A DNA stretch of 47,337 nt, taken from NCBI RefSeq assembly GCF_003611635.1, contig NZ_RAVZ01000025.1, positions 1-47,337 of the forward strand. Reading direction: 5' to 3'. The stretch comes from Corallococcus terminator. GTDB taxonomy: Bacteria > Myxococcota > Myxococcia > Myxococcales > Myxococcaceae. Position numbers and translations under genes: made by a program. How positions within the stretch are numbered: position 1 is the first letter of the stretch; each line of letters starts with the position of its first letter. Positions 709-6,693 of this stretch are shown one piece after another. The notes below the pieces were generated by a model that made no database searches, was not told the origin of the DNA, and saw only the letters and a program-made list of their open reading frames with translations.

Positions 709-3024
709 GTGAACACGCGCCTCGCCAGTCTGTCGGCAGTGGTCCTCGTCGGGCTCACCCTCGCGTTCGCCCTGCGCTTCGCCTCGGCACCCACGGCCCT
801 GCCGGCCTCGGCGCCCGTGGAGGTGTTCTCCGCCGGGCGGGCCCGCGCGCACCTGGAGCACATCGCGGCGGTCCCGCACCCCGTCGGCTCGCGCGCACAC
901 CGCGAGGTGCGCGAGTACCTGCTGCGCGCCCTGCGCGAAGCGGGGGTGACGCCGGAAGTCCAGACGACCTCCGCCATCAACCCGAACCTGGGCACGGGCC
1001 GCTCCCTCCCGGGCGCCACGGTCCACAACGTGCTCGCCCACCTCAAAGGCGTGGAGGGAGGCAAGGCCGTCGCCATCGTCGCCCACTACGACTCCGTCCC
1101 CACCTCGCCCGGGGCCTCGGATGACGGGGCGGGCGTGGCGGCGATGCTCGAAACGCTGCGCGCGCTGCGCACCGGCCCCCCGCTTCGCAACGACATCCTC
1201 TTCGTCTTCACGGACGCGGAGGAGACGGGGCTCGTGGGCGCCAGGGCCTTCGCGCTCCAGCACCCGCTGGCGAAGCAGGTCGCCGTCGTCCTCAACTTCG
1301 AGGCTCGCGGTTCGCGCGGCCCGTCGCTGATGTTCCAGACGAGTCCCGACAACCGCTGGCTCATCGAACATCTGGCGCGCTCCGGGGCCCCCGTCCAGGC
1401 CAGCTCGCTCTTCGAAGAGACCTACCGGCAACTGCCCAACGACACGGACCTCAGCATCTTCCTGAGGGAGGGCACGCCGGGCCTCAACTTCGGCTTCATC
1501 GACGGGCTCATGCGCTACCACTCGAGCCTGGACGACCTGGCCCACCTGGACCCCGACAGCCTCCAGAATCACGGCGAGGTGATGCTCGCGCTCGCGCGAC
1601 ACCTGGGCCAGGACCCGCTGGAGCCCACCTCCACGGGGAGCGCCATCTACTTCAACGTCGGGCCCTTCCTCGTCCACCACGCGGCGTCCTGGGCGGTGCC
1701 CCTCGCGCTGCTGGCGCTCCTCGCCTGTGGGGCCGCCATCGCCGTGGGCCTGCGGCGGGGAGCGTTGCGCGCGCTCGGCGTCCTGAAGGGCCTGGGCGCG
1801 CTGCTCGCGACGACGGCGGGGAGCGCGGCGGTGATCCACGCCGCGTGGTGGCTCGTGCAGCTCATCGATGGGGGCTTGAGGGCCCTGCCCCAACGCGACG
1901 CCTACCAGGGCCCGCTCTTCATCGCGGGACTGCTGGCGCTGACGCTCGCGACGGTGGCGGGTCTCCAGGCCCTCTTCCTGCGCAAGGTGCGGCGGGCGGA
2001 GCTCGCGGCGGGCGCGCTCATCGCGTGGACGGTGCTGGGACTCGTCACCGCGTTCGTGGCGAGCGGCGTCAGCTACCTGTTCATCTGGCCCGTCGTCTTC
2101 GGCGCGCTGGGCCTCGGGTGGCGGTGGCGCGAACCGGGGGAGACGCTGACCTCGCGCACCCGCCTGATGCTGGCCGCGAGCGCCATCCCCGGTCTGTTGT
2201 TGTGGGTGCCGCTGGTGCCCAATTTCTACGTCGCCCTGACGCTCTGGCTGGTGGCGGTGGTGACGGCGGTGGTCGCGCCGTGGCTGGCATTGCTCCTGGC
2301 CCAGACGGTCGCGGAGCCCGTGCGCCTGGGCCGGACGGTGGCGCCGCTGTCCCTGGCGCTGGCCGGGGTGCTGCTGGGTGTGGGCGTGGTGCAGGAGCGC
2401 TTCGACGCGGATACTCCGCGCCCCAGCAGCGTCGCCTACGTCGCCGACGTCACGAGCGGCAAGGCGTACTGGCTCTCCAGCGACTCCGAGCCGGACGCCT
2501 GGGTCTCCCGCGTCCTCGGCGGCGAAGCCACGACACGCCGCATGGGCACCTACCTGCCCCTGTTGCCGAGGGACGTCCACGTGGCCCCCGCCCCGCTGCG
2601 GCCCCTCCTCGCGCCGGAGGTGCGGGTGGAGGACGACGAGACGCGGGACGGATTGCGCCGGCTCACGCTGCGGGTGACGTCGCGGCGGCAGGCGCCACAG
2701 CTCCAGCTCCAGCTTGGAGACGGCACGCCCCTGCGAGGCCTGTCCATCGCCGGCCACCGGCTGGAGCCCGAGGCCGTCACCCGCGTGCGCGAACGTGAGA
2801 CGGCCACGGTCATTCAGTTCTGGGACCCACCGCCCGAAGGCCTCGTGTTGGAGGTCTCCGTCCCCGAGGGCACCCGCGTGCGGCTGCGCGCGTCGGACCT
2901 GCGCTTCGACCTCTCCGAAGCCCCCGGCGCGCCCGGCGACCAGCGCCCGGCCAACACCATTCCTGTGCCGTTCTACTTCGGCGTCACGGACGAGACCCTG
3001 GTGGGCGGCGTCGGCGAATACTGA
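709..3024 (+). CDS. Membrane-anchored M28 family zinc peptidase
   Basis: Predicted zinc aminopeptidase facing the periplasm. An N-terminal membrane segment (about residues 7-24) precedes an M28 domain at about 40-300. Expected metal ligands are visible: His126 (VAHYDS), Asp138 (GASDDGAG), Glu171/Glu172 (DAEETG), Asp245 (NDTD) and His271 (MRYHSS). Residues 315-575 hold about eight hydrophobic segments, then a soluble C-terminal domain of about 190 residues, which resembles large M28 proteins of the Fxna/ER-metallopeptidase type. Translation starts at GTG 709; no nearby ATG fits. Length is 771 aa. It is probably monocistronic, lying between the msrA hairpin and a 353-base gap. The physiological substrate is unknown. 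Confidence 0.9.
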   Translation: MNTRLASLSAVVLVGLTLAFALRFASAPTALPASAPVEVFSAGRARAHLEHIAAVPHPVGSRAHREVREYLLRALREAGVTPEVQTTSAINPNLGTGRSLPGATVHNVLAHLKGVEGGKAVAIVAHYDSVPTSPGASDDGAGVAAMLETLRALRTGPPLRNDILFVFTDAEETGLVGARAFALQHPLAKQVAVVLNFEARGSRGPSLMFQTSPDNRWLIEHLARSGAPVQASSLFEETYRQLPNDTDLSIFLREGTPGLNFGFIDGLMRYHSSLDDLAHLDPDSLQNHGEVMLALARHLGQDPLEPTSTGSAIYFNVGPFLVHHAASWAVPLALLALLACGAAIAVGLRRGALRALGVLKGLGALLATTAGSAAVIHAAWWLVQLIDGGLRALPQRDAYQGPLFIAGLLALTLATVAGLQALFLRKVRRAELAAGALIAWTVLGLVTAFVASGVSYLFIWPVVFGALGLGWRWREPGETLTSRTRLMLAASAIPGLLLWVPLVPNFYVALTLWLVAVVTAVVAPWLALLLAQTVAEPVRLGRTVAPLSLALAGVLLGVGVVQERFDADTPRPSSVAYVADVTSGKAYWLSSDSEPDAWVSRVLGGEATTRRMGTYLPLLPRDVHVAPAPLRPLLAPEVRVEDDETRDGLRRLTLRVTSRRQAPQLQLQLGDGTPLRGLSIAGHRLEPEAVTRVRERETATVIQFWDPPPEGLVLEVSVPEGTRVRLRASDLRFDLSEAPGAPGDQRPANTIPVPFYFGVTDETLVGGVGEY

Positions 3025-3124
3025 AGCGGGACGCGGTCAGATGACGTTGCGCCCGTGACCCGTGCGGCGGCGCTGGATCAGCCTCTGACACCAGGGAGCA
3101 CCGCGCTTGTTCATGGTGAAGGAA

Positions 3125-3143
3125 CCGCAGCTTTCAGCTGCGG
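3125..3143. repeat. Perfect hairpin at left edge of accessory insert
   Basis: CCGCAGCT (3125-3132), loop TTC, AGCTGCGG (3136-3143). It lies about 100 bases after the M28 peptidase stop, with no U-run. It could be a terminator for that gene or a boundary structure of the inserted cassette. Confidence 0.5.
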
Positions 3144-3170
3144 GCATCTCTTCCCATGGAAGACAGGAAT

Positions 3171-3184
3171 AGCGCCCGGAAGGC
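3171..3184 (+). repeat. 14-base direct repeat, left copy
   Basis: AGCGCCCGGAAGGC occurs here and again at 5905-5918, so the two copies bracket the OLD-S24 gene. Each copy lies near a small GCAGC/GCTGC hairpin. This may mark cassette ends, or may be chance. Confidence 0.45.
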
Positions 3185-3293
3185 GCAGGCAAAAGCTGCC
3201 CCTATAGGTTGCGCGCCTTCGGTTCACCATCCCCACCAAGAGGTATGGCCCTTACGGCGGCCCTGGGTAACCTCTGGCATCGCAGAGAAGAGT

Positions 3294-3312
3294 GCGGACA
3301 GACGTCGTCCGC
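3294..3312. promoter_or_regulatory. Dyad upstream of OLD-S24 gene, possible operator
   Basis: GCGGAC (3294-3299) and GTCCGC (3307-3312) form a perfect dyad around a 7-base centre, about 65 bases before the start codon. It could bind a regulator or fold in the leader RNA; no specific regulator family is recognised. Confidence 0.3.
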
Positions 3313-3377
3313 GAAGCCGGGCATCTCGCTCACTCGCAAGAACGCTCAGTCACTCCGCGATTCAAAGGAACGACCTC

Positions 3378-5882
3378 ATGAGGCTGGACCGGGTGGTCAT
3401 CAGGAACTTCAAGTCCATCAAATCGATCGACCTCCAGGTTCCCCAGAAGGACGAGCACCGTCAGGGCTCCGCCGACTTCCTCTCGATCGTGGGGGAAAAC
3501 AACGCAGGGAAGTCGTCCATCATGGAGGCCATACGCCTCGCTTGTACGGCCGCCTCGAAAGCAGGTCTGGATCAGTTTCCAGGCATCGACCCGGGAAACG
3601 GGCCCATCGAGATGGAGCTGGCGTTCGACCAACTCAACGAAAACGACCGGAACTCACCTGCCGTCGCGGGAAACACCTTCACGGAAGACGGACGGGAAAA
3701 GTACCGACTCAAGCGGATCTGGAAGACGCCTGGAGCCGCCTCTGAGAACTCGTCATACAATCCCAACCGCCCACCGACGGTTCATCTAACGGGCTGGACT
3801 GGCAAAAAAACCCTCAAAACGCTTCTTGAAGCGGACGAACGCTGGAAGCCCATCCTCGAGCTCGTCACCAAGGAGAACTCCGGCCCCAGACCGCCCATTG
3901 ACATGCTCATCCAGGCGGCGAAGAAGCTCGACTCGCCACTGCTGGAGACCCATCCGCAAGAACCGTGGGCGCCCTATCAGGGAAGCAGCGCGTCCCATCT
4001 TGAAGCCATCCTGCCCAGCGTCATCTACGTTCCAGCGCTTCGTGAAACCAGCGAAGAAGCAGACGTAGGCATGAAACAATCTTCGATTCGAAAAATCGTG
4101 AACTCCCTCTTTGAACAGCAACTCGCAGGCCACGAGAGGGTCATCCGGTTCAGGTCCGCGGCAATCGAACTCCAGGATCTTTTCGCCACAGATGGCAAAC
4201 ATCGGATCGTGACTTCCATTGAGGAGCAGATCACGGCGAAGTTCAAGGAACTCATCAACATTGGTGCTGAGCTCAAGTTCAGCGCTCCGGATGTGATGTC
4301 GGATCTCGCGAACAGCACCGAGTTCAGGGTCCTGGATGGGGGCTTGTCCACCACGCCGGACAATCAAGGCCATGGAGCACAGCGCTCCATCGTGCTGGCA
4401 CTTCTCCAGATGTACGCAGAGCAGCTCCGGAAGAGCACTGCGCGTGAGCAGCATCCCATGTTGTTCCTGATCGAAGAACCGGAAATCTACCTGCACCCTG
4501 CCATGTGCCGAAGGATGCGCGACACGCTGCTGAAAATCTCCCGAAGCGGCGCCGGTCAGGTCATCTGCACAACGCACTCCCCCGTCTTCCTGGACCTCGC
4601 CGACCGTCACGACGGCATCGTCATCTTGAGGAAGAAGGCGGCGGCTCCGGTCGCCACACAACGAACCCGTGACGTGTTCGACCAGACCGAAGGCGACAAG
4701 GAGCAGCGCGCGCGGCTCCGGATGCTCTTGACCTTCGATCCCGCAGTCAACGAAGCATTCTTCTCGGAGCAGGTCTGCCTTGTCGAAGGAGACTGCGAGA
4801 TCGCCGCCGTCGAAGCGGTCGCCAGAAGGCTCGAAAAAGAAGGAAGCATCAGCTGGTCCAAATACCTTCTGGCCAGGCGCATGGTCACCCTTATCAACTG
4901 CCGGGGGAAATGGACCATCCCTGCCTTCCAGAAGGTGCTCAGGGCTTTCGACATCAACTATCGCGTCATCTACGACCTGGACGTGGGAGCCCAGGCCAAC
5001 CAGGCCAACTCCCAGATCAACAACCTCTTGTCGGGAAATGACCAGAGCCTGCCGCATGACCCGAACTTCGAGGAGTTCATTTTCGGCAAGCACTGGCGGA
5101 GCGACAAGCCCTGGCTCGCCACGAAGACCATCAATGAGGCTCCGCAACTCAATCCGCGACTCATCGCATTCTTCGAGTTCGCAATCGGGCAATCCATTTC
5201 GGACCTGAAGCCGGACGCAGTGCCGCCAGCCCCTGAGCACACAGACGCTCCGCAACTTCGAAGGCCCCACCGGCGAAACCTCCGGGGAAAGCTCAAGGAA
5301 CTCAAGGTTCCGGCGCAGGTCATCCAGTCAGCGCGACGTGTGGAGCAACTGTTCCGAGTCGCCGCAGGGCCAAATTTCGCCACACGCCCAGACTCCGATT
5401 CACCCTTGCAGCAACTGGAAGGAACGAAGATCGATGCATTCGCCATCGTTACAGGCACATCCATGGCGGACACCCTGCATGACAACGACATCGTCGCGCT
5501 CAAGTTCCTCGACAAGGTCTTCCTGGAGCCAGTGCACTCGACCGACCTTCCCTTCAATGCTGCGATCCCAAGCCTCATTGAGAACGACGGCATCTACGTG
5601 TTGGCGGCGAACGATGACATCGATCAAAAATCGTACACCATGAAACGCGTCAGGATTTCCACCCGCACAGGCGGAGCATGGCTCGGAAATATCTCCGCGG
5701 ACAACCCGGACACGAACTGGGGTGACCGCGGTCATTTCGAGATCCGCAAGACGGATCGCGTCCACTTCGCGGCGCAAGTCATCGGAGTCGTTCGAAGAGA
5801 CGAACTGGAAGGGTTCTCCCCGGAGGCCCTGGGGTTGACCACCATCTCAATGGAGCAGGAGACCGCCTTCGAAGAAGATTGA
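3378..5882 (+). CDS. OLD-family ATPase/TOPRIM nuclease fused to a LexA-like S24 peptidase domain
   Basis: Predicted 834-aa anti-phage type nuclease. Residues 1-430 are an SMC/ABC-like ATPase: Walker A GENNAGKSS at 39-47, an ABC-signature region near DGGLS, Walker B LFLIEEPE at 362-369, H-loop His400 (TTHSP). Residues about 465-600 form the TOPRIM nuclease with VEGD (Glu470) and DLD (Asp533, Asp535). OLD proteins usually end soon after this. Here about 200 residues follow, ending in a peptidase S24/LexA-like domain (about 680-820): GTSM with Ser695, YTMKR with Lys756, a SADNP segment and a closing VIGVVRR. Ala663-Gly664, in RVAAG, lies 32 residues before the serine, as in LexA self-cleavage. 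ATG 3378 has AAAGGA 8 bases upstream; an earlier in-frame ATG at 3156 lacks support. AT-richer codons than its neighbours suggest transfer. The nuclease family call is firm, the S24 call is good, autoproteolysis is inferred. Confidence 0.85.
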   Translation: MRLDRVVIRNFKSIKSIDLQVPQKDEHRQGSADFLSIVGENNAGKSSIMEAIRLACTAASKAGLDQFPGIDPGNGPIEMELAFDQLNENDRNSPAVAGNTFTEDGREKYRLKRIWKTPGAASENSSYNPNRPPTVHLTGWTGKKTLKTLLEADERWKPILELVTKENSGPRPPIDMLIQAAKKLDSPLLETHPQEPWAPYQGSSASHLEAILPSVIYVPALRETSEEADVGMKQSSIRKIVNSLFEQQLAGHERVIRFRSAAIELQDLFATDGKHRIVTSIEEQITAKFKELINIGAELKFSAPDVMSDLANSTEFRVLDGGLSTTPDNQGHGAQRSIVLALLQMYAEQLRKSTAREQHPMLFLIEEPEIYLHPAMCRRMRDTLLKISRSGAGQVICTTHSPVFLDLADRHDGIVILRKKAAAPVATQRTRDVFDQTEGDKEQRARLRMLLTFDPAVNEAFFSEQVCLVEGDCEIAAVEAVARRLEKEGSISWSKYLLARRMVTLINCRGKWTIPAFQKVLRAFDINYRVIYDLDVGAQANQANSQINNLLSGNDQSLPHDPNFEEFIFGKHWRSDKPWLATKTINEAPQLNPRLIAFFEFAIGQSISDLKPDAVPPAPEHTDAPQLRRPHRRNLRGKLKELKVPAQVIQSARRVEQLFRVAAGPNFATRPDSDSPLQQLEGTKIDAFAIVTGTSMADTLHDNDIVALKFLDKVFLEPVHSTDLPFNAAIPSLIENDGIYVLAANDDIDQKSYTMKRVRISTRTGGAWLGNISADNPDTNWGDRGHFEIRKTDRVHFAAQVIGVVRRDELEGFSPEALGLTTISMEQETAFEED

Positions 5883-5904
5883 ACCGTCCCAACAAGACCG
5901 GCAC

Positions 5905-5918
5905 AGCGCCCGGAAGGC
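5905..5918 (+). repeat. 14-base direct repeat, right copy
   Basis: Perfect second copy of AGCGCCCGGAAGGC, 22 bases after the OLD-S24 stop. A small hairpin, GCTGC-atc-GCAGC, follows at 5924-5936. Confidence 0.45.
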
Positions 5919-5991
5919 ACGGAGCTGCATCGCAGCGATAGCCGGAACAGGTCCATGCTTCTTGACCCACGAGCACCGACTGGAGGCGAGC

Positions 5992-6312
5992 ATGCTTTAC
6001 TTGGTTGTCCATCACCACCAAGACCGGAGTCAGCCCTGGATCAACAAATGGATCGACGATGACAGGGTCAAGACCATCACCACGACGCGGGAGATTGGTC
6101 GCCACTGCGAAAAGGCCGCCCAATCGGGTGAGCGGATTCGATTCCACCGGTGTGGCTACGGCACGTCTGGGCCGCTGATCTGTGCCGAAGCGAGAGTCGC
6201 CTCCGTCGAAGCCGTGGACAAGACGATGTACCTCGTGCACTTCGATGAGCACATCGTGCTGCAGGTAGCGTCACAGGCCATTCCCCAAGGAACCAGCTGG
6301 TATCGATTATGA
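5992..6312 (+). CDS. Small protein of unknown function downstream of OLD-S24
   Basis: The 106-aa product is not recognised. It opens with a beta-strand-like MLYLVVHHH, has a WINKWIDDD segment, and continues with ERIRFHRCGYG, LICAEARV and a final strand-rich part. The pattern (short strands, a G-rich turn, an EARV strand) is loosely like small PUA/ASCH-type folds, but that is a guess. There are no membrane segments. GGAGG at 5982-5986 fixes the start at ATG 5992 rather than an upstream in-frame ATG at 5962. It lies 109 bases after the OLD-S24 gene on the same strand and shares its lower GC, so the two may be one module. Its stop is followed in the same frame by the oxidoreductase remnant. Confidence 0.7.
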   Translation: MLYLVVHHHQDRSQPWINKWIDDDRVKTITTTREIGRHCEKAAQSGERIRFHRCGYGTSGPLICAEARVASVEAVDKTMYLVHFDEHIVLQVASQAIPQGTSWYRL

Positions 6313-6351
6313 AAATTTCCGAAAGGACAGGCATGGATTTCAAAAAGGCCT

Positions 6352-6573
6352 GACGCGGGCATCTACTGCCTCAGTGCCGCGCGCTACCTGAGCGGCGAGG
6401 AGCCCATTGAGAGGCAGGGCTTCAGCCAGAGCACGCCCGGAGAAGAAGGTCTCGCCGACGTGCTCATCATCGAAGCGCTCTACCACTCCTCGCGCGAGGG
6501 CAAGGCCGTGAAGCTGGAGGCACCGAAGAAGCTGGATGCCTTCCGGGGCCCTCCTCCGAAGGAAGAGGGCTGA
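6352..6573 (+). pseudogene. 3' remnant of a Gfo/Idh/MocA family oxidoreductase
   Basis: About 73 codons reading DAGIYCLSAARYL and later EEGLADVLIIEALYHSS and KAVKL, which match the C-terminal parts of NAD(P)-dependent Gfo/Idh/MocA oxidoreductases (a D-x-G-x-Y-x-x-N/S-A-A-R-Y block and the final E-G-L-A-D helix). The Rossmann domain and catalytic region are missing, and no plausible start codon or ribosome site precedes the fragment. It begins where the lower-GC insert ends, so the insert probably replaced or disrupted the 5' part of an ancestral gene. GC returns to the local norm within the fragment. Confidence 0.7.
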
Positions 6574-6630
6574 AACCTCACGCGGCGCGCGTCACGGGCG
6601 CGGAGGGATTGAGTGCCCCGCCCATCGCCC

Positions 6631-6661
6631 GGGGTCGCATGCCGGTTCGGCATGCGACCCC
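6631..6661. terminator. Strong hairpin between convergent genes
   Basis: GGGGTCGCATGCCG (6631-6644), loop GTT, CGGCATGCGACCCC (6648-6661): a perfect 14-bp stem. It sits between the oxidoreductase remnant (plus) and the Mpo1-like gene (minus), where a bidirectional terminator would be expected. Confidence 0.7.
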
Positions 6662-6693
6662 ATTCCACACGGCGCGAGCAGAAGGAGAACCGA

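Follow-up and report, generated by a model that had tools for sequence, protein, structure and literature searches.

OLD-family nucleases of Class 1, such as P2 Old, the Thermus scotoductus OLD and YbjD/OldB of Escherichia coli, are encoded by one gene in which an ABC-type ATPase is followed by a TOPRIM domain, with no GajB or retron neighbours (PMC10568477; PMC13261556). Peptidase family S24 comprises proteins such as LexA, UmuD and CI. LexA is cleaved at Ala84-Gly85 by Ser119 and Lys156 (PMC3834820). The intact repressor loses its function on cleavage in both LexA and CI, and LexA, once cut, exposes ClpX signals and both its fragments are degraded (PMC10584840). In type I enzymes, ClpXP proteolysis of HsdR shuts restriction during host DNA repair or replication (PMC11109961; PMC4231737). 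The gene described here lies in a 47,337-nucleotide stretch of Corallococcus terminator DNA (contig NZ_RAVZ01000025.1; "the window" denotes this whole stretch). Its product shares the one-gene order of ATPase and TOPRIM domain with Class 1 OLD proteins and differs from them by an added C-terminal S24 domain, which, in contrast to that of LexA, UmuD and CI, is joined to a predicted nuclease and not to a DNA-binding domain. Such tails recur on other defence enzymes, and the tail may act as an off-switch. The parts of the gene are as follows.

3378 to 5882, forward strand: whole gene, OLD-family nuclease with a C-terminal S24 (LexA-like) domain, 834 amino acids (aa) (single open reading frame (ORF), Pfam and PADLOC, hhalign)
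3492 to 3518, forward strand: Walker A, GENNAGKSS, residues 39-47 (motif position, alignment)
4470 to 4484, forward strand: Walker B region, IEEPE, residues 365-369 (motif position, alignment)
4572 to 4583, forward strand: H-loop, THSP, residues 399-402 (motif position, alignment)
4758 to 4982, forward strand: TOPRIM domain, residues 461-535 (Pfam, alignment of nine proteins)
5178 to 5339, forward strand: linker, residues 601-654 (ratio of nonsynonymous to synonymous substitution rates, dN/dS, higher than in the S24 part in five of five close pairs)
5340 to 5801, forward strand: S24 (LexA/UmuD/CI-like) domain, residues ~655-808 (hhalign, MAFFT alignment, fold comparison, dN/dS 0.13-0.21)
5361 to 5369, forward strand: candidate self-cleavage site AAG, residues 662-664, bond Ala663-Gly664 (alignment of close proteins)
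5454 to 5465, forward strand: GTSM, residues 693-696, with candidate nucleophile Ser695 (present in 9/9 full-length proteins)
5643 to 5645, forward strand: candidate general base Lys756, within YTMKR, residues 753-757 (7/9; Arg in two)
5697 to 5708, forward strand: ADNP, residues 774-777, in line with the ENP/NP motif of LexA-type domains in the alignments (9/9)
5778 to 5798, forward strand: VIGVVRR, residues 801-807, aligned to the LexA C-terminal strand (alignments)

By its ABC ATPase motifs and TOPRIM catalytic residues the protein belongs to the OLD family, and nuclease activity is predicted. In searches with the whole protein, the N-terminal half matches an OLD-type ABC ATPase (Pfam AAA_15, 1.6e-30), the OLD-like_TOPRIM family is matched as well (PF20469, 3.1e-13), and the PADLOC models Old (2.1e-72), AriA (1.9e-36) and GajA (1.8e-27) are hit. 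Across nine full-length proteins, the window's included, the ATPase motifs are kept except at E40, A43 and I365; within the TOPRIM motifs VEGD (469-472) and DLD (533-535), E470, D533 and D535 are unchanged in all nine. The motifs named in a preliminary description made from the letters of this DNA (Walker A and B, the H-loop, Glu470 and Asp533/535 of the TOPRIM domain, Ser695 of GTSM, Lys756 and VIGVVRR) are all found, and wherever that description gave a residue number it is correct. Translation could also begin further upstream, at an in-frame ATG at 3156, but 3378 is preferred because it is preceded by AAAGGA and because a start codon is aligned with it in 9/9 full-length proteins (ATG in eight, GTG in L011), the translations of the relatives having been begun at the tblastn match.

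The tail is a diverged S24 domain, as judged from profile comparison. When an alignment of the C-terminal regions was compared by hhalign with 19 S24 sequences, a Prob of 96.0 and a score of 58.4 were obtained, against no more than 24.4 in 200 column shuffles and no more than 13.7 in eight segments of the OLD part; against a 13-sequence S24 set the score was 53.1, with 60 shuffles at or below 23.5 and the reversed alignment at 16.3. The first reference sets consisted of Pfam matches and named LexA and UmuD proteins filtered by a Ser/Lys motif, a regular expression that removed 6 of 34 reference loci, lambda cI included; 13 of the remaining loci were used, or 10 together with nine fusion tails (the 19-sequence set), and the shuffles offset this selection bias only in part. 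Narrower comparisons gave weaker values: Prob 58.7 for the LexA-type set alone, 68.6 or 32.5 for the fusions alone, 6.7 for E. coli LexA alone, 1.2 for UmuD alone and 16.0 for the lone window sequence against the 13-sequence set. Peptidase_S24 is also the sole Pfam family matched at E<=1 by all nine members of the C-terminal alignment (best 0.016). Since the profile scores lie far above the shuffle and segment controls, the window tail is almost certainly an S24 homologue. The resemblance to LexA, UmuD and CI extends from the profile to the Ser and Lys, the upstream Ala-Gly (AG), the NP and C-terminal strand motifs and, with caveats, the predicted fold.

In a MAFFT alignment of 18 rows (window, L032 and 16 viral-contig S24 sequences), the window's Ser and Lys are in register with 16/16 of the viral-contig rows, and its AG with 14/16, being off by two in L131 and missing in L132; the columns invariant in 18/18 rows are, in window numbering, Ala663, Gly693, Ser695, Met696 and Lys756. 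For this second fold alignment 32 rows had been proposed, then 26, and 18 were used (among the 14 dropped, a stop was shown only in L147 and L154). The AlphaFold2 model from the window and L032 only was too poor for use (predicted local distance difference test score, pLDDT, 33.9), and the addition of the 16 viral-contig sequences gave a pLDDT of 65.9 and a predicted template modelling score of 0.69. For this second model, whose alignment included S24 sequences, the 15 best VIA-align matches were chains of LexA, UmuD and CI (Z 8.6-11.6, root-mean-square deviation 2.3-4.1), followed at ranks 16-25 by signal peptidases and two more repressor chains of the same superfamily, after which Z falls to about 3. 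The fold match is partly circular, because all 16 added rows came from LexA or S24-fusion queries. Foldseek returned no match to the PDB at E<=0.001 for this model, and six matches at E<=0.001 in a viral library, to helix-turn-helix regulators, a CI repressor, a LexA-like protein and SipA. The architecture proposed in the preliminary description, an OLD nuclease followed by a LexA/UmuD-type S24 domain, is backed by the hhalign scores, the conserved residues, the AAG element and, with these caveats, the fold comparison.

The AAG element had gone unnoticed in that description. It stands in the context FR(V/I)AAG (659-664) and is unchanged in 7/7 close proteins, the window's included, with variable residues after it, and it is missing in two diverged ones. 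AG, Ser and Lys are all found in the window protein; therefore all three parts needed for self-cleavage are present, and the protein seems likely to cleave itself.

Somewhere in the query, 50/96 family genomes (the window's included) match the OLD-S24 protein, mostly in the ATPase part only, and the full-length fusion is found in 9/96, again counting the window's. The search for such fusions in other genomes that the preliminary description called for thus brought the full-length proteins to nine, in nine genomes, the window's included. In a tenth genome, G072, the match covers residues 1-489 only; the OLD relative there (L038, 8924-11149, reverse strand) continues into unrelated sequence, with part of the TOPRIM domain and the S24 tail gone. 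With the tail as query, 9/195 Myxococcota genomes match, and a scan of the genome contig collection by exact peptide pattern found one relative. A lone stretch like tail residues 747-798 occurs in a 119-aa frame in genome G017 (L091, ~1514-1666, forward strand) and is likely a decayed copy. The close group consists of the window protein and six others at 64-88% identity, all with AAG, Ser and Lys; the diverged pair, G056 and G065, is at 37-41% identity.

The OLD and S24 domains are under purifying selection. In five close pairs, three of which share members, dN/dS is 0.13-0.21 for S24, 0.16-0.33 for TOPRIM and 0.19-0.34 for the linker (the pair L010-L011 was uncomputable in three of four regions); the S24 value is below that of TOPRIM in three of the five pairs and near it in two, and below that of the linker in all five, narrowly in one. 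Among plasmids, 119 records match the query P0001 and none covers 80% of it. In the top match, a coding sequence of 643 aa from Exiguobacterium with 33% identity over residues 1-605, there is no room for the tail, because it stops shortly past the matched part and an integrase gene comes next. In phages and plasmids the tail query P0002 found no match by tblastn at E<=1, and two alignment-based searches of viral contigs revealed no OLD-S24 relatives. Judged by these comparisons, the tail looks like an added module kept by selection.

Beyond what the preliminary description had noted, several other kinds of defence enzyme carry an S24 domain at the C-terminus. When 25 relatives were searched with Pfam S24, long frames came up, and the S24 tail of one such frame, used as query, matches 32/189 Myxococcota genomes. 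In the best 20 of these 32 places, S24 forms the C-terminus of a protein of at least 457 aa in 12 and lies in a frame of 214-325 aa in eight, several of which carry, by eye, a repressor-like N-terminal part. The 12 long fusions comprise HsdR in G157, G030, G194, G188 and G103 (Pfam HSDR_N, SWI2_SNF2, T1R_D3-like), type III Res in G113, G189 and G007 (RE_endonuc in 3/3; REase_III in G113 and G189, the two scanned), a DruE-like protein in G160 (PADLOC DruE1, 1.2e-109), UvrD-like helicases in G016 and G017 (PADLOC NERD+UvrD model for G017) and, in G148, a protein whose N-terminus fits no Pfam family. These and related loci are listed below.

L087, 5162-8707, forward strand: HsdR-S24 with AG, Ser and Lys (Pfam, alignment)
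L088, 5577-9128, reverse strand: HsdR-S24 with AG, Ser and Lys (Pfam, alignment)
L115, 1184-4789, forward strand: HsdR-S24 with AG, Ser and Lys (Pfam, alignment)
L116, 1290-4811, reverse strand: HsdR-S24 with AG, Ser and Lys (Pfam, alignment)
L120, 1664-5776, reverse strand: HsdR-S24 with AG, Ser and Lys (Pfam, alignment)
L117, 1728-5264, reverse strand: type III Res with S24-like C-terminus, adjoining a DNA methylase
L118, 1717-5253, reverse strand: type III Res with S24-like C-terminus, adjoining a DNA methylase
L119, 1733-5272, reverse strand: type III Res with S24-like C-terminus
L121, 161-6106, reverse strand: Druantia DruE-like helicase, 1982 aa, with S24-resembling C-terminus (PADLOC, tail alignment)
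L089, 5318-7894, reverse strand: UvrD-like helicase ending in S24, E ~3e-13
L090, 4792-7368, forward strand: UvrD-like helicase ending in S24, E ~3e-13 (NERD+UvrD, PADLOC)
L126, 2037-3407, forward strand: 457-aa protein, N-terminal part of no Pfam family, C-terminal S24 (Pfam)
L131 (IMG/VR contig, putatively viral), 941-4489, forward strand: HsdR-S24
L132 (IMG/VR contig, putatively viral), 893-4420, forward strand: type III Res-like protein ending in a similar tail

Pfam S24 lies above its cut-off in 7/12 fusions (30.6-50.0 bits, with G148 at 23.5) and below it in G113, G189 and G103 (L117, L118 and L120); at E<=0.001 it is unlisted for G007, G160 and L132 (L119, L121 and L132), so that the S24 call in G007 and G160 is based on the tail-query match and the tail alignment. 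Ser and Lys are found in 14 non-OLD tails (six HsdR, four type III Res, one DruE-like, two NERD/UvrD helicases and one protein of no known family), and AG in 11/14, the exceptions being three Res. In a nine-sequence tail alignment that includes L118, L119 and L121, every row has Ser and Lys, and 7/9 have AG, L118 and L119 reading AAAT; by eye, the L132 tail reads FTFKRW. The Res genes of G113 and G189 adjoin a DNA methylase and the HsdR gene of G157 is near HsdS; the scanned frame beside the HsdR gene of G103 encodes a subtilase. When the end of one HsdR-S24 protein was compared with plasmids, 763 records matched and none covered 80%. Among the 30 matches listed, the alignment stops by residue 346 of 499, before AG (~360), even at 72% identity. 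Because these plasmid matches stop before AG, the HsdR tail likewise looks added. On the Halomonas plasmid L094, the end of an SLFN-g3 helicase gene (3004-5064) is overlapped by an S24 frame (4995-5474, forward strand), possibly a split or frame-shifted fusion.

What is established by these comparisons (S24 homology, the Ser, Lys and AAG residues, selection and recurrence) is extended here by steps that we infer: cleavage, a response to RecA, the direction of the switch and a function in defence. On single-stranded DNA coated with RecA, the S24 domain would dock on the filament and sever the polypeptide at Ala663-Gly664, in the way that LexA is cut at Ala84-Gly85. This would leave a nuclease fragment with the end ...FRVAA or ...FRIAA, much as the N-terminal fragment of LexA ends in ...VAA, a degradation signal in that protein, and would be inactivated and/or destroyed by ClpXP. 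The tail would be an off-switch that disarms the nuclease upon damage to the host chromosome, a form of restriction alleviation inside the enzyme. Stimulation of self-cleavage by RecA is reasonably probable and, given cleavage, the net effect would more probably be switching off; the RecA-triggered, LexA-type off-switch taken as a whole is put forward as quite possible, short of probable. It is favoured because of the LexA-like fragment end, the removal of HsdR by ClpXP and the like tails on HsdR and Res. As with EcoKI, a DNA-attacking defence enzyme would be shut off during host DNA damage and repair (PMC11109961; PMC4231737); there, however, ClpXP works in trans on restriction complexes that sit on unmodified DNA, whereas the OLD-S24 protein would contain its own self-cleaving sensor.

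Several observations weigh against this explanation, beginning with the S24 assignment itself. PF00717 is unlisted on the whole 834-aa protein at E<=10; on the last 195 residues it reaches E 0.029 and 14.5 bits against a cut-off of 23.3, and a PF00717 search of the window's own genome misses the tail at E<=0.001. No NCBIfam model matches the tail as S24, and against PDB sequences phmmer and profile searches gave chance-level matches, without LexA. Compared with the HsdR and Res tails, the OLD tail reaches an hhalign Prob of 68.6, which does not establish a common subfamily. As to cleavage, the P1 Ala lies 32 residues before Ser695, against 35-38 in LexA, UmuD and cI, and the spacing from Ser to Lys is 61 against 37-43; the AAG element closes a block that is conserved regardless (QSA, Q and FR are invariant before it), and its register with LexA slips by one or two residues in one alignment (hhalign set). 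An SOS-box search found none at 3025-3377; over the whole window there were 10 matches, where 17.2 would be expected. For EcoKI, alleviation of restriction does not in itself belong to the SOS functions (PMC11109961). In the diverged proteins of G056 and G065 the domain and Ser are retained, with Arg for Lys and no AG. The preliminary description had made its reading depend on the retention of Ser695 and Lys756; both are retained in 7/9 full-length proteins, and the Arg of these two departs from it. Since these two still have the domain and its Ser despite the changes, the domain can evidently be retained without apparent proteolysis, which seems to have been lost in one branch of OLD-S24 proteins.

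The same pair lends weight to a module that is not proteolytic, in which the S24 fold would serve for dimerisation or as a dock to RecA filaments or to sites of repair, catalysis being incidental or lost in some members. In LexA and CI, the C-terminal S24 domains form dimers, and three of four Res tails read AAAT where others have AG, but Ser, Lys and AAG or AG are together in 7/7 close OLD proteins and 11/14 other fusions, and such a role is considered unlikely. Cleavage might also act in the opposite direction, as in UmuD, which is activated through cleavage: the intact tail would restrain the nuclease, and cleavage on RecA filaments induced by damage or phage would free the OLD part for abortive infection. 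An OLD protein that reads recombination status has a precedent in P2 Old, which is set off when RecBC is lost and cleaves a host tRNA (PMC13261556). On HsdR or Res, however, such a tail would arm restriction just as repair makes unmodified host DNA, and the predicted ...VAA or ...IAA end resembles that of the degraded LexA fragment, so that an on-switch appears somewhat improbable, if worth serious attention. Finally, the C-terminal region could be an unrelated domain or an artefact of chance or misassembly, as the sub-threshold Pfam score and the lack of a Foldseek PDB match at E<=0.001 or of LexA among the phmmer and profile matches to PDB sequences might suggest. A fusion common to nine full-length proteins in nine genomes and under purifying selection, with an hhalign score of 58.4 against at most 24.4 in 200 shuffles, makes this very improbable.

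The gene lies in a stretch of low guanine-plus-cytosine (GC) content.

3025 to 6693, no strand: low-GC stretch flanked by the gene of an M28 peptidase and the convergent gene of a Mpo1-like protein (0.58-0.61 GC in 1-kb windows, against 0.67-0.74 around)

The four neighbouring genes scanned encode MsrA, the M28 peptidase, an ORF of no family and the Mpo1-like protein. In the relative G024, a mere 34 bp separates the ends of the matches to the M28 peptidase and Mpo1-like genes. G021 and G026 lack an M28 match at the locus, and MsrA directly adjoins the Mpo1-like gene there. Because the flanks are nearly adjacent in G024 and M28 is missing in the other two, the OLD gene is regarded as an insertion at a variable site. 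The site at 3025-6693 carries more cargo, other cargo or none in other Corallococcus. Apart from the flanking genes, no window gene recurs beside the relatives' OLD-S24 gene, window genes being the only ones compared. Downstream of the fusion lies an ORF of 116 aa (5962-6312, forward strand). That the two form a two-gene system was rejected, since this ORF matches no Pfam family and occurs in 0/9 relatives' regions (conservation was tested for window genes only). A defence island around the window's gene was likewise rejected, the four scanned neighbours not being defence genes; one may exist around the genes of the relatives, whose neighbours were viewed by eye only. The OLD-type ATPase and TOPRIM domain, and the matches to the GajA and AriA models, are shared with Gabija (GajA/GajB) and PARIS (AriA/AriB). 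In contrast to these systems, neither a GajB-type UvrD helicase nor a separate AriB is found among the four neighbours scanned, and membership of either was rejected. By context, the stand-alone gene is a Class 1 OLD, with no GajB or retron parts among the four neighbours (retron RNA was not searched for).

Literature searches aimed at such fusions in an open-access library found neither an OLD-S24 nor a restriction enzyme-S24 fusion, consistent with the statement in the preliminary description that no system of this architecture was known. LexA goes unmentioned in the main text of three OLD and BREX papers (PMC10568477; PMC12796447; PMC12839542). Both halves of the protein belong to known families, and it is their union, together with its recurrence on several defence enzymes, that appears undescribed. 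Tentatively, S24 tails may be a portable self-inactivation module gained repeatedly by OLD, HsdR, type III Res, DruE-like and NERD/UvrD proteins, one that would read RecA and leave an Ala-Ala end ready for ClpXP. To our knowledge, host self-protection from DNA-destroying defence enzymes under damage is well understood only for type I enzymes, through EcoKI and ClpXP. If the off-switch holds true, the extensions found at the C-termini of restriction enzymes would have a purpose, and engineers would gain a switch controlled by RecA. One portable device on unrelated defence enzymes would then protect the host during DNA damage, and the SOS signal would be tied straight to immunity, bypassing transcription.

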